Shown: piece after piece, positions 59,427-61,664 of the stretch
Position numbering within the stretch: position 1 is the stretch's first letter
Layout: every line of letters starts with the position of its first letter
Assembly: GCA_024235715.1 (NCBI GenBank)
Contig: JACKLW010000005.1
Location: 558,001 to 622,000 of the forward strand
Direction: 5' to 3'
From: Accumulibacter sp.
GTDB lineage: Bacteria; Pseudomonadota; Gammaproteobacteria; Burkholderiales; Rhodocyclaceae
DNA: 64,000 bases
Position numbers and translations under genes: made by a program
Notes under the pieces: model-generated
Database searches by the model: none
What the model was told of the DNA's origin: nothing
Seen by the model: the letters and a program-made list of their open reading frames with translations, nothing else

Positions 59427-60293
59427 TCATCCCTGCCCCTCATCGAGCACTGCCTGCATTTCACCACTTTTTCGCCGCTTGTAGCGATTGTAGCCCCAGA
59501 GATACTGCTGCGGACACTGGCGAACCAGCACTTCGATCTGCTGATTGATCTGCTGCGCACGCTCGTCGACCGTTCCACAGATCGGCTGTGTTGGCTGCTG
59601 CAGATGAAAATGGTAGCCGGCACCAGCGGGCAGGCGTTCCGCCCACACCATGATGACGGTCGCCCCCGTCTCGACCAGTCGTCCGGCGAGGGTCATGGTG
59701 TAGGCCGGCCGGCCGAAGAAATCCAGCCAGCGGCCTTCGCCAGACCGCGGGGCCTGGTCTGGCAGCATGCCAACCGCTTCGCCACGTCTGAGCGCCTTCA
59801 GCAAGCCGCGCACGCCTGACAAATCCGCCGCCGCCAGATGCAGCTGCGCGCGCGCCCGGCCCGCTTCGATCATCGCCTGCAGCCACGCCCGTTTGGGCGG
59901 CCGGTAGAGGACCGTGATCGGCGCATGCGTCGACAGGTACTGCGCCGTGACCTCGAAGCAGCCGAGATGCGGCGTCAGGTAAAGGATTCCGCGTCCTTCG
60001 CGCGAGGCCGCCTCGACCAGTTCCCAGCCCGACACGCGGACGACAAGGCTGACCGTCTCCGCCTGCGTCCGCAGCCAGATTCGAGGCAGCTCGAGCATTC
60101 CCTTGCCGGCTTCAGCGATGGCTGCCGAGCGGATACGTGCGGCTTCCGCTTCACCGAGTGCCAACGCCATGTTCTCACGCATATGCCGGCGGTAGGTCGG
60201 TGACAGCAACCAGGTCAACCAGCCAAGCAGTGAACCGAAAGCATGCAACCACGACAGGGGCAGACGGCTGAGGAGACGAAAGAGTGTAATCAC
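59427..60293 (-). CDS. Lipid A biosynthesis lauroyl/myristoyl acyltransferase (LpxL/HtrB family)
   Basis: A 288-residue inner-membrane acyltransferase adding a secondary acyl chain to Kdo-lipid IVA. An N-terminal hydrophobic segment (about 13-30) anchors it. The catalytic HX4E motif is HLGCFE, in ILYLTPHLGCFEVTAQYLS. YRPPKRAWLQAMIEAGR and MLPDQAPRSGEGRWLDFFGRP are family features. The C-terminal WGYNRYKRRKSG is typical. Lipid A secondary acylation fits its msbA and core-kinase neighbours. Whether it is the LpxL or LpxM type is not decided. Confidence 0.9.
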   Translation of the reverse strand: MITLFRLLSRLPLSWLHAFGSLLGWLTWLLSPTYRRHMRENMALALGEAEAARIRSAAIAEAGKGMLELPRIWLRTQAETVSLVVRVSGWELVEAASREGRGILYLTPHLGCFEVTAQYLSTHAPITVLYRPPKRAWLQAMIEAGRARAQLHLAAADLSGVRGLLKALRRGEAVGMLPDQAPRSGEGRWLDFFGRPAYTMTLAGRLVETGATVIMVWAERLPAGAGYHFHLQQPTQPICGTVDERAQQINQQIEVLVRQCPQQYLWGYNRYKRRKSGEMQAVLDEGQG

Positions 60294-60318
60294 GCGCTGA
60301 TCCAGTGATCGGTCATGT

Positions 60319-60348
60319 TTGACCAGCCAGCAAGAGAAAAACTATAAT
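60319..60348 (+). promoter_or_regulatory. Sigma-70 promoter of metK
   Basis: -35 TTGACC (60319-60324) and consensus -10 TATAAT (60343-60348) with 18-base spacing. Transcription would begin near 60355, giving a 5' leader of about 143 bases before metK. Confidence 0.8.
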
Positions 60349-60354
60349 TATCCC

Positions 60355-60497
60355 TCCGCCGAGTTAATCAGGACAACTTGCAGGGCGGGGAGAGCGACGA
60401 AAGCGCTCAAAAAAAATACTGCTAAAGCGTCGTCTGCTCGAACCCCGAAGCCGGCAACGTGACCTTTTCGGGGTTTTATATTGGAGCAGACCAGAAC
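60355..60497 (+). ncRNA. Structured metK 5' leader with terminator hairpin and RBS-sequestering helix (candidate riboswitch)
   Basis: Several helices can be drawn by eye. CTCCGCC (from 60354) can pair with GGCGGGG (about 60384-60390), enclosing GAGTT/AACTT. GAGCG/CGCTC forms a hairpin (about 60392-60408) followed by A8. A 9-bp stem AACCCCGAA (60441-60449) / TTCGGGGTT (60467-60475) with T residues after it looks like a terminator. Outside it, GTCTGCTC (60432-60439) pairs perfectly with GAGCAGAC (60484-60491), which contains the GGAG ribosome-binding site. The leader of a SAM synthetase gene is a natural place for SAM or SAH control. It does not match the SAM-I, SAM-II or SAH consensus as I know them. 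Confidence 0.6.
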
Positions 60498-61664
60498 ATG
60501 AGCAAAGAGTACCTCTTCACTTCGGAATCGGTTTCCGAAGGCCATCCGGACAAGGTTGCCGATCAGGTTTCCGACGCCATCCTCGACGCCATCCTCAACG
60601 AAGACCCGACAGCGCGGGTCGCCTGTGAAACGATGGTCTCGACCGGACTGGTGGTCATCTCGGGCGAAATCACCACCAAGGCGCACATCAACTACCGCGA
60701 AATCGCGCAGGAAACCGTTCGCCGCATCGGCTACGACAATTCCGACATCGGTTTCGACTACAAGAGCTGTGCCATCCTCACCGCCATCAACCGTCAGTCG
60801 CCAGACATCGCCCAGGGCGTCGACGAGGGTCAGGGCATCGACCTCGACCAGGGTGCCGGCGACCAGGGGCTGATGTTCGGCTACGCCTGCAACGAGACGC
60901 CGTCGCTGATGCCGCTGCCGATCCACTACGCGCACCGCATCATGCAGCGGCAGGGAGAAGTTCGCCACGACGGCCGCCTGCCATGGCTGCGCCCGGACGC
61001 AAAAAGCCAGATCACCGTTCGCTACGTCGACGACAAGCCGGTGGCCATCGACACCATCGTGGTGTCGACGCAGCACGATCCGGACGTCTCGCACGCGCAG
61101 ATTTCGGAAGCGGTGATCGAGGAAATCATCAAACCGGTCGTTCCGCAGGAAATCCTCGGCAGCAACCCCCGCTATCTGGTCAACCCGACGGGACGTTTCG
61201 TCGTCGGTGGCCCGCACGGCGACTGCGGCCTGACCGGCCGCAAGATCATCGTCGACACCTATGGCGGCGCGGCCAGGCACGGCGGCGGTGCCTTCTCCGG
61301 CAAGGACCCGTCCAAGGTCGACCGCTCGGCCGCCTATGCGGCGCGCTACGTCGCCAAGAACGTCGTTGCCGCCGGCCTGGCCGACCGCTGCGAAGTGCAG
61401 GTAGCCTACGCGATCGGCGTCGCGCGACCGGTTTCGCTGATGGTCAATACCTTCGGCACCGGCAAGATCAGCGATGAAGTCATTGTCAAGCTGATCGGCG
61501 CGCACTTCGACCTACGGCCGAAAGGCATCATCCAGTCCCTGAATCTGCTGCGGCCGATCTACCGGAAGACTGCCGCCTACGGCCACTTTGGCCGCGACGA
61601 ACCCGAGTTTACCTGGGAGGCCACCGACAAGGCGGCAGCGCTACGGGCAGAGGCGGGGCTCTAG
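60498..61664 (+). CDS. metK: S-adenosylmethionine synthetase
   Basis: A 388-residue enzyme making SAM from methionine and ATP. I chose the ATG at 60498 (GGAG 11 bases upstream); an upstream GTG at 60459 lies inside the terminator hairpin. Motifs are [34 protein letters not shown] and the phosphate-binding [20 protein letters not shown]. The length is standard. It is monocistronic as seen here; ahcY does not follow. Its leader is probably regulatory. Confidence 0.97.

Follow-up and report, generated by a model that had tools for sequence, protein, structure and literature searches.

A candidate SAM-II-derived riboswitch in the metK leader of Accumulibacter and other beta-proteobacteria

The metK locus

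The window, i.e., the whole 64,000-nt stretch of Accumulibacter sp. DNA analyzed here, carries metK behind a leader of ~143 bases (60355-60497) whose start we placed from the promoter. The features of the locus, including elements defined in the sections below, are as follows (A1 and A2 are two sequence alignments).

60319..60348, + strand, sigma-70-like promoter TTGACC-18-TATAAT (11 of 12 consensus matches)
60354..60360, + strand, 5' strand of P1, pairing with 60384-60390; P1 covaries in A1 and A2
60361..60367, + strand, L1 third strand GAGUUAA, assigned by alignment with canonical SAM-II, which sets G60363 at U10, U60364/U60365 at U11/U12 and A60366 at position 13
60372..60383, + strand, 5' strand of pseudoknot helix P2, GACAACUUGCAG, containing the UUGC of SAM-II (U20, U21, G22, C23)
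60384..60390, + strand, 3' strand of P1, from covariation in A1 and A2
60392..60408, + strand, linker hairpin GAGCG/CGCUC, a variable element that other species lack or have in a longer form
60419..60431, + strand, 3' strand of pseudoknot helix P2, CUGCUAAAGCGUC, from covariation and pocket alignment; U60423 corresponds to U44 (adenine anchor), A60424/A60425 to A45/A46 and A60426 to A47 (amino-acid anchor)
60427..60460, + strand, proposed anti-aptamer hairpin (60427-60438 with 60449-60460), exclusive with both P2 and the helix sequestering the ribosome-binding site (RBS)
60432..60439, + strand, anti-Shine-Dalgarno (anti-SD) strand GUCUGCUC (GTCTGCTC), perfect complement of GAGCAGAC at 60484-60491
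60441..60479, + strand, terminator-like hairpin (stem 60441-60449/60467-60475) with the short U-tract UUUUAU
60483..60491, + strand, SD sequence GGAG (60483-60486) and sequestering strand GAGCAGAC (60484-60491)
60498..61664, + strand, metK, S-adenosylmethionine synthetase, 388 aa, an ORF whose ATG at 60498 was placed by homology

The promoter, the ~143-base leader with its several helices, the terminator-like hairpin (60441-60475) and the perfect 8-bp helix enclosing it (60432-60439 with 60484-60491) had all been called in the original prediction, and each was found where it had been placed. In the terminator-like stem, AACCCCGA(A) at 60441-60449 pairs with (T)TCGGGGTT at 60467-60475, with TTTTAT counted from 60474, and the enclosing helix covers three of the four bases of the GGAG at 60483-60486. 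Both structures are present in the minimum-energy fold of 60330-60520 (z = -3.44, with 0 of 200 shuffles as good); nested-only folding cannot show a pseudoknot, and energies were applied to the 3' half of the leader only. A simple scanner with a loop limit of 8 found no terminator in the window; the loop here is ~17-18 and the U-tract is short. Transcription probably starts at ~60355, at the foot of P1. A -10-like hexamer (at least 5 of 6 matches) occurs in the 32-nt stretch at or just upstream of P1 in 110 of 123 metK leaders, as compared to 5 of 121 for a control stretch of equal length 80 nt further up, a contrast that speaks against initiation beyond 60440, a possibility that the original prediction had itself raised.

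The upstream half of the leader

Blastn searches with 60320-60500 gave matches in 39 of 61 genomes, the source genome included. Complete identity was seen over 34 nt (60355-60388) with a different genus of the family (G033) and over 33 nt with a genome from a different family (G037). The metK of the window was then the query with which 80 named metK loci were gathered, and two conserved words, ACTTGC and GCTAAAGCG, were both found in 86 of 110 leaders (the 80 named loci plus 30 loci of relatives) with a looser pattern and in 67 of 110 with a strict one. Since both patterns select for these very words, conservation was counted from covariance-model matches instead.

Alignment A1 comprises 62 metK leaders; Accumulibacter was thinned from 29 to 7 by removal of 22 near-duplicates, and L052 and L097, cut by contig ends, were left out. 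Its core reads UCGCC-GAGUUAA-n-GACAACUUGC-RR-GGCGA-variable linker-AAAU-n-YYGCUAAAGCG-U(U)CGCC, where P1 is UCGCC/GGCGA and P2 is GAC-AAC-UUGC-RR with YYGC-U-AA-A-G-C-GUC. Pairing was kept in 96.9% of P1 and P2 cells, as compared to 87.9% in shuffled alignments and 39-47% with slid partners, and eight pairs changed on both sides, giving 132 double-change cells against 46 when shuffled, although the number of pair types (19 vs. 19.1 shuffled) did not differ and the outermost P2 pair was unpaired in 23 of 58 rows. The telling changes in P2 are GAC/GUC against GAAC/GUUC and RR/YY appearing as GG/CC, AG/CU or GA/UC, while the invariant pairs UUGC/GCUAA are uninformative on pairing either way.

A covariance model, R1, was built from the same 62 leaders and contains P1 only. 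Alignment A2 holds 104 distinct R1 matches aligned without knowledge of P2; they come from 90 separately fetched loci (among the best 150 places listed) and include 15 canonical SAM-II elements, with 1 of 105 rows repeating an A1 sequence. In A2, 92.9% of the cells of this structure were paired, and there were 180 double changes and 29 pair types, as compared to 57 and 23.8, respectively, after shuffling. P1 and the pseudoknot helix P2 thus covary in two sequence sets. These comparisons identify positions 60354-60431, the leader's upstream half, as an H-type pseudoknot, and its core matches that of the SAM-II riboswitch. The helix 60354/60390, for which the original prediction had proposed a covariation test in related leaders, is real and is P1, although the pseudoknot containing it had been missed; the RBS helix named alongside it also has counterparts in related leaders, as described below.

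Relationship to SAM-II and other riboswitch classes

A search of Rfam, the first check that had been proposed, returned no match in the window at gathering score, and no SAM-family match was obtained in the leaders of 20 other metK loci, where the gathering score of RF00521 (SAM_alpha) is 36 bits. A permissive search of 60250-60560 gave only three matches up to E 10. The SAM/SAH riboswitch (RF01727) reached only 13.3 bits (E 1.4) against a cut-off of 40 and overlapped the RBS region; it resembles the present element as a small pseudoknot preceding metK in Rhodobacterales, but is described from alpha-proteobacteria. SAM-V (RF01826) exceeded its cut-off in none of 21 genomes and gave no match in the source genome at E up to 10. 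SAM-V has the same pseudoknot topology and pocket, acts on translation, and occurs as a second, RBS-proximal aptamer behind SAM-II, as does the metK type in the tandems described below. However, in the structural account of SAM-V the SD sequence immediately follows P2 on its 3' side (PMC6061858), whereas in the window ~50 nt separate P2 from the SD, which is covered by a distinct anti-SD helix that does not adjoin P2. SAH riboswitches were matched downstream of metK in 5 of the 20 loci and in the leader of none.

Elements scoring above the RF00521 cut-off were present in 13 of 61 genomes; the source genome has one preceding metH (G000:C5:1094040-1094121, minus strand; 42 bits), while its element before metX scored 31.7 bits, below the cut-off. 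The best score for any metK leader was a weak 21.4 bits (G032), and the leader in the window gave no match at E up to 10. At that E-value, matches arose in 13 of 14 control genomes, none of them over the cut-off, so only strong or gene-linked matches were used. R1, trained on metK leaders only, was applied in the reverse direction and detected, within the source genome, metK (73.8 bits), metH (33.8 bits, E 4.2e-6) and metX (26.7 bits, E 3.9e-4), plus four further matches that all had E > 1. On the evidence of these searches, the metK leader is homologous to SAM-II, and the metH and metX elements of the source genome are its paralogues. The original prediction had held that the leader resembled no known class and might be a variant or a new metabolite-sensing RNA: the lack of an Rfam match at threshold bears out the former statement, but the pseudoknot core matches SAM-II, and a variant SAM-II homologue describes the element better than a new architecture.

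A 2013 survey listed U10, U11, U12, U20, U21, G22, C23, G42, C43, U44, A45, A46 and A47 as completely conserved in SAM-II (PMC3764141), and the anchoring roles given above for the U44 and A47 positions come from SAM-II and SAM-V (PMC3764141, PMC6061858). All of these except U10 were kept in 129 of 129 ungapped metK elements, a count that is an upper bound because R1 rewards these bases. The 129 rows remained from 130 when the one gapped row (L097) was dropped; 55 of them come from the named loci, which gave 53 of the 62 R1 training rows picked by ACTTGC and GCTAAAGCG, and U11 and U12 are absent from both selection words.

Position 10, which the survey lists as U, was G in 117 of these elements, including that of the window, U in 9 and A in 3; two of the three A cases (L241, L242) are probably alignment shifts of GAAUUUAA. 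The 74 metK rows from separately fetched loci, of which 73 were not identical to a training row, gave G in 63, U in 9 and A in 2. Canonical SAM-II elements of the same match set had U in 31 of 33, and GAUUUG was present in 25 of 25 SAM-II sequences from other classes of the phylum (30 loci, of which 5 without a core near the middle were left out). G10 was rejected as a mark of metK alone, since, of 30 non-canonical elements standing before genes other than metK or before unidentified ones, 10 likewise have G. The metK type further has A at position 13 in 127 of 129 and A at position 18 in 129 of 129 elements, as compared to G at position 13 in 33 of 33 canonical elements, which were sorted by G at position 18. 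Since mutual information had led to the prediction of a homopurine pair, G-G or A-A, in this part of SAM-II (Barrick and Breaker, 2007; PMC2258182), the A-A at 13/18 seems, in our reading, to be that pair and a change within the known range. The change at position 10, unlike that at 13/18, seems to fall outside it. In SAM-V, the equivalent of position 10 pairs weakly with the adenine-anchoring uridine (U8:U47) and the neighboring U flanks the sulfonium, according to PMC6061858.

In sum, the metK element shares with SAM-II (RF00521) the H-type pseudoknot with P1, P2 and an L1 third strand, the UUGC/GCUAAA core, a -10-like box shortly before P1 (reported for SAM-II in PMC1273637) and a target in SAM/methionine metabolism. 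It differs in having G for U at position 10, A-A rather than G-G at 13/18, extra GAC/GUC pairs in P2, metK as its target, an anti-SD platform, and a score under the Rfam gathering threshold. Measured against SAM-II as catalogued, it falls short in the Rfam score and at U10 and agrees in structure and homology. In terms of its sequence, therefore, it is best described as a real but unrecognized riboswitch branch that is ordinary in kind: SAM-II-derived, linked to metK and with one altered pocket base.

Distribution and gene context

Within the order, R1 matched 248 of 399 genomes, representing 117 of 159 genera, at E up to 0.01, cross-matches to canonical SAM-II included. Of the 80 named metK loci, 56 had an R1 match, in each case before metK (56 of 56), and the other 24, among them those of Nitrosomonas, Gallionella, Ferrovum and Chromobacterium, had none. 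Among 90 non-canonical elements in fetched loci (from the best 150 places listed), 70 stood before metK, 14 before a small M[YF]DC protein or a MATE transporter and 6 before other or unidentified genes; one fetched locus, L130, had been taken from the RF00521 search and not from those best 150. In the wider class, R1 matched 55 of 321 genomes at E up to 0.001, including 7 genomes of other orders with scores of at least 46 bits; of 20 weaker loci, 13 had canonical elements only and 7 a non-canonical one (3 of them before metK). Three loci (L241, L242 and L246) belong to AT-rich genomes of another family of the class and have a metK leader of this type whose third strand carries AUUU (GAAUUUAA; for L246, GUAUUUAA), and these leaders extend the metK link beyond the order of the window.

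Tandem arrangements, i.e., a canonical SAM-II followed by a non-canonical element, were found in 15 loci of the order (among the best 150 places listed), and in those sequences that were inspected a hairpin resembling an intrinsic terminator was seen by eye between the two aptamers. The genes downstream were an M[YF]DC small protein and then a MATE transporter, or the transporter as first identified gene, in 12 of the 15, and the G-type was the second aptamer behind canonical SAM-II in 6 tandems. The non-canonical type also occurs before metZ in L245 and, on visual inspection of the 17 residues available at a contig end, in L169; in G042, a sub-threshold SAM-II match (25.5 bits) stands just before a non-canonical element and the next frame begins MetZ-like (17 residues). 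SAM-II tandems with mixed platforms and SAM-II/SAM-V tandems are known from PMC9481103. The repeated occupation of the second, RBS-proximal place behind SAM-II supports SAM as the ligand of the metK type.

Expression platform

For the downstream half of the leader we used a set of 124 leaders, obtained from 184 metK loci by way of the 159 containing GCTAAAGCG and thinned at 70% crude ungapped identity, in which 11 Accumulibacter leaders remain. The letters of the RBS-hiding helix differ by lineage but the pairing is kept, with counterparts across the beta-proteobacteria. The anti-SD:SD duplex averaged -14.8 kcal/mol with the native SD and -10.9 kcal/mol when SDs were swapped between species, and none of 5000 permutations was as low; shuffling each leader's own anti-SD region gave -10.0 and GC-matched swaps -11.3 kcal/mol, the native duplex being better in 91 of 124. 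The anti-aptamer helix, in which the aptamer 3' strand GCGU(U)CGCC pairs with a downstream GGCWACGC (GUCGCAG with CUGCGAC in leaders of the Massilia/Janthinobacterium type), averaged -13.7 kcal/mol against -12.2 when swapped (0 of 5000 permutations) and -12.6 in swaps matched for GC and length, with the native helix better in 83 of 124.

When the aptamer strand was blocked in silico, 27 of 123 leaders lost more than 0.1 in computed RBS accessibility and 3 showed a rise. Mean accessibility was 0.26 in free leaders, 0.20 with the aptamer strand blocked and 0.31 with other 11-nt stretches blocked, i.e., a shift about as large in the opposite direction. The leader in the window had a computed accessibility of 0.25 with or without the block, and its anti-aptamer fold (-45.2 kcal/mol) was 12.5 kcal/mol less stable than its sequestering fold (-57.7 kcal/mol). 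Since the equilibrium switching result is weak, we rested the platform on conservation rather than on energies; and since the energies in the window favor the sequestering fold either way, a two-state model would here require co-transcriptional kinetics.

The original prediction held that the leader could act on both transcription and translation. With a script accepting short U-tracts, the terminator-like hairpin was found in 11 of 11 thinned leaders among L001-L028, which suits that proposal for the Accumulibacter lineage, but in only 21 of 124 overall, and the terminator was therefore rejected as a general feature. Judging from this distribution, dual control would be at most a feature of the Accumulibacter lineage and its kin, with RBS control as the general rule. 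Translational control and a nearby terminator have been studied together for the SAM-II riboswitch of Sinorhizobium meliloti in PMC9373788.

A proposed SAM-responsive OFF switch

We consider it very likely that the metK leader is a riboswitch in which a divergent, SAM-II-derived H-type pseudoknot aptamer (60354-60431) senses SAM and turns expression off. Both the ligand and the OFF direction are inferred: binding of SAM would favor hiding of the metK RBS, and the product of MetK would thereby probably shut down its own synthesis. With SAM bound, P2 would hold the GCGUC strand (60427-60431), leaving the anti-SD strand (60432-60439) free to pair with the RBS and allowing the nested terminator-like hairpin to form. 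Without SAM, GCGUCGUCUGCU (60427-60438) could pair with AGCCGGCAACGU (60449-60460); this anti-aptamer hairpin would disrupt P2, occupy six of the eight anti-SD bases, enclose the terminator-like hairpin's 5' arm within its own loop and leave the RBS open. In the species of the window, the choice between the folds is assumed to be made during transcription. An anti-aptamer helix that excludes both P2 and, in the window, six of the eight anti-SD bases is the layout of a two-state OFF switch.

A SAM-II scaffold with G at position 10 might have shifted its specificity and tune metK in response to a polyamine, decarboxylated SAM, SAH or methionine. The position is reported as invariant in SAM-II, yet G stands in 117 of 129 metK elements while U stands in 31 of 33 canonical ones, its SAM-V equivalent pairs weakly with the adenine-anchoring uridine (U8:U47; PMC6061858), and there is a precedent in SAM-I variants that sense spermidine, one of which lies upstream of a metK (Salvail et al., 2023; PMC10853860). 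Like the present element, those are close variants of a SAM aptamer, but they are built on the SAM-I scaffold and, in that account, several ligand-contact bases have changed, as compared to one pocket base here. Considering that the sulfonium-facing U11 and U21 and the anchors U44 and A47 are kept in 129 of 129 elements (again an upper bound), that the G-type serves as second aptamer in six SAM-II tandems, and that U occurs in nine metK elements, so that G and U look interchangeable, a change of ligand appears unlikely. A related and somewhat less doubtful suggestion, still one we hold only tentatively, is that the metK elements form a distinct subclass whose adenine-side binding plane has been rebuilt, with G10 opposite U44, so that ligand or affinity has changed. 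If so, a single genome would carry two SAM-II-derived sensors of different set-points or ligands, one serving methionine synthesis (metH and metX) and the other SAM synthesis (metK).

Two further readings dispense with SAM binding by the RNA. The leader might be a ligand-free RBS-occluding structure or an RNA thermometer in which the SAM-II-like core is a decayed remnant, and indeed the leader in the window hides its RBS at computed equilibrium regardless of the aptamer; decay, however, would leave neither 12 pocket positions unchanged in 129 of 129 elements, even allowing for the selection involved, nor P1 and P2 covarying in two sets, and we regard this as very improbable. Control by a SAM-responsive or other RNA- or DNA-binding protein recognizing the conserved block would suit the high primary-sequence identity in L1 and P2, but what is conserved is located 3' of the -10 box and shows the covariation of paired RNA, the SAM-II fold explains the pattern base by base, and a metK regulator has been sought in beta-proteobacteria and, as reported by Leyn et al. 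(2014; PMC4239095), none was found; such a protein is scarcely to be expected.

The preferred interpretation, a SAM-sensing OFF switch of SAM-II descent, would supply a candidate regulator for metK in beta-proteobacteria, for which Leyn et al. (2014; PMC4239095) give no known regulator and an unsuccessful search for an element. The same study describes, in its text, a pseudoknot element with a terminator before metX/metZ of beta-proteobacteria; compared by that description, it is probably the canonical SAM-II found here before metX and metZ. The main text of Narunsky et al. (2024) does not mention metK, SAM-II or Betaproteobacteria, and we found no description of a SAM-II-type element before a beta-proteobacterial metK among the papers listed in a literature search that covered few subscription journals, so an earlier mention is possible. 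The present results show that a widespread branch of the family escapes the Rfam model of SAM-II. The element also enables a clean test of specificity versus affinity, in which one base by the ligand adenine is changed and a canonical paralogue from the same genome serves as control.

Additional observations

The five SAH riboswitches follow the metK match at distances of ~10 to 1,340 nt (L077:4176-4273, L079:4244-4314, L096:4218-4294, L107:4290-4358 and L100:5491-5565), and in these loci SAM-type and SAH-type switches are neighbors. Rfam RF02424 (Burkholderia sRNA Bp2_287) matched the strand opposite SAM-II at L124:212-337 (30.7 bits) and L119:2515-2635 (18.4 bits), against a cut-off of 70; it is possible that this family was assigned to the wrong strand or that it represents an antisense RNA.

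The loci with the M[YF]DC protein comprise 12 tandems (L130, L165, L175, L177, L179, L193, L202, L209, L215, L217, L225 and L227) and two single elements (L211 and L226). The protein is ~100 aa long, and a 90-residue part of it from L177 had no match in Pfam at E values up to 1; 90 residues of the transporter in L211 matched the MATE family (PF01554); an OFF-type SAM switch in front of an exporter is puzzling. Non-canonical aptamers also precede genes judged by eye to resemble AAA/MoxR-type ATPases (L229, L234 and L176), and the 90 residues scanned of the L176 protein gave AAA matches below Pfam cut-offs. One genome (G679) contained five R1 matches, and its fetched locus (L238) holds a tandem of a canonical and a non-canonical element before a short uncharacterized ORF.
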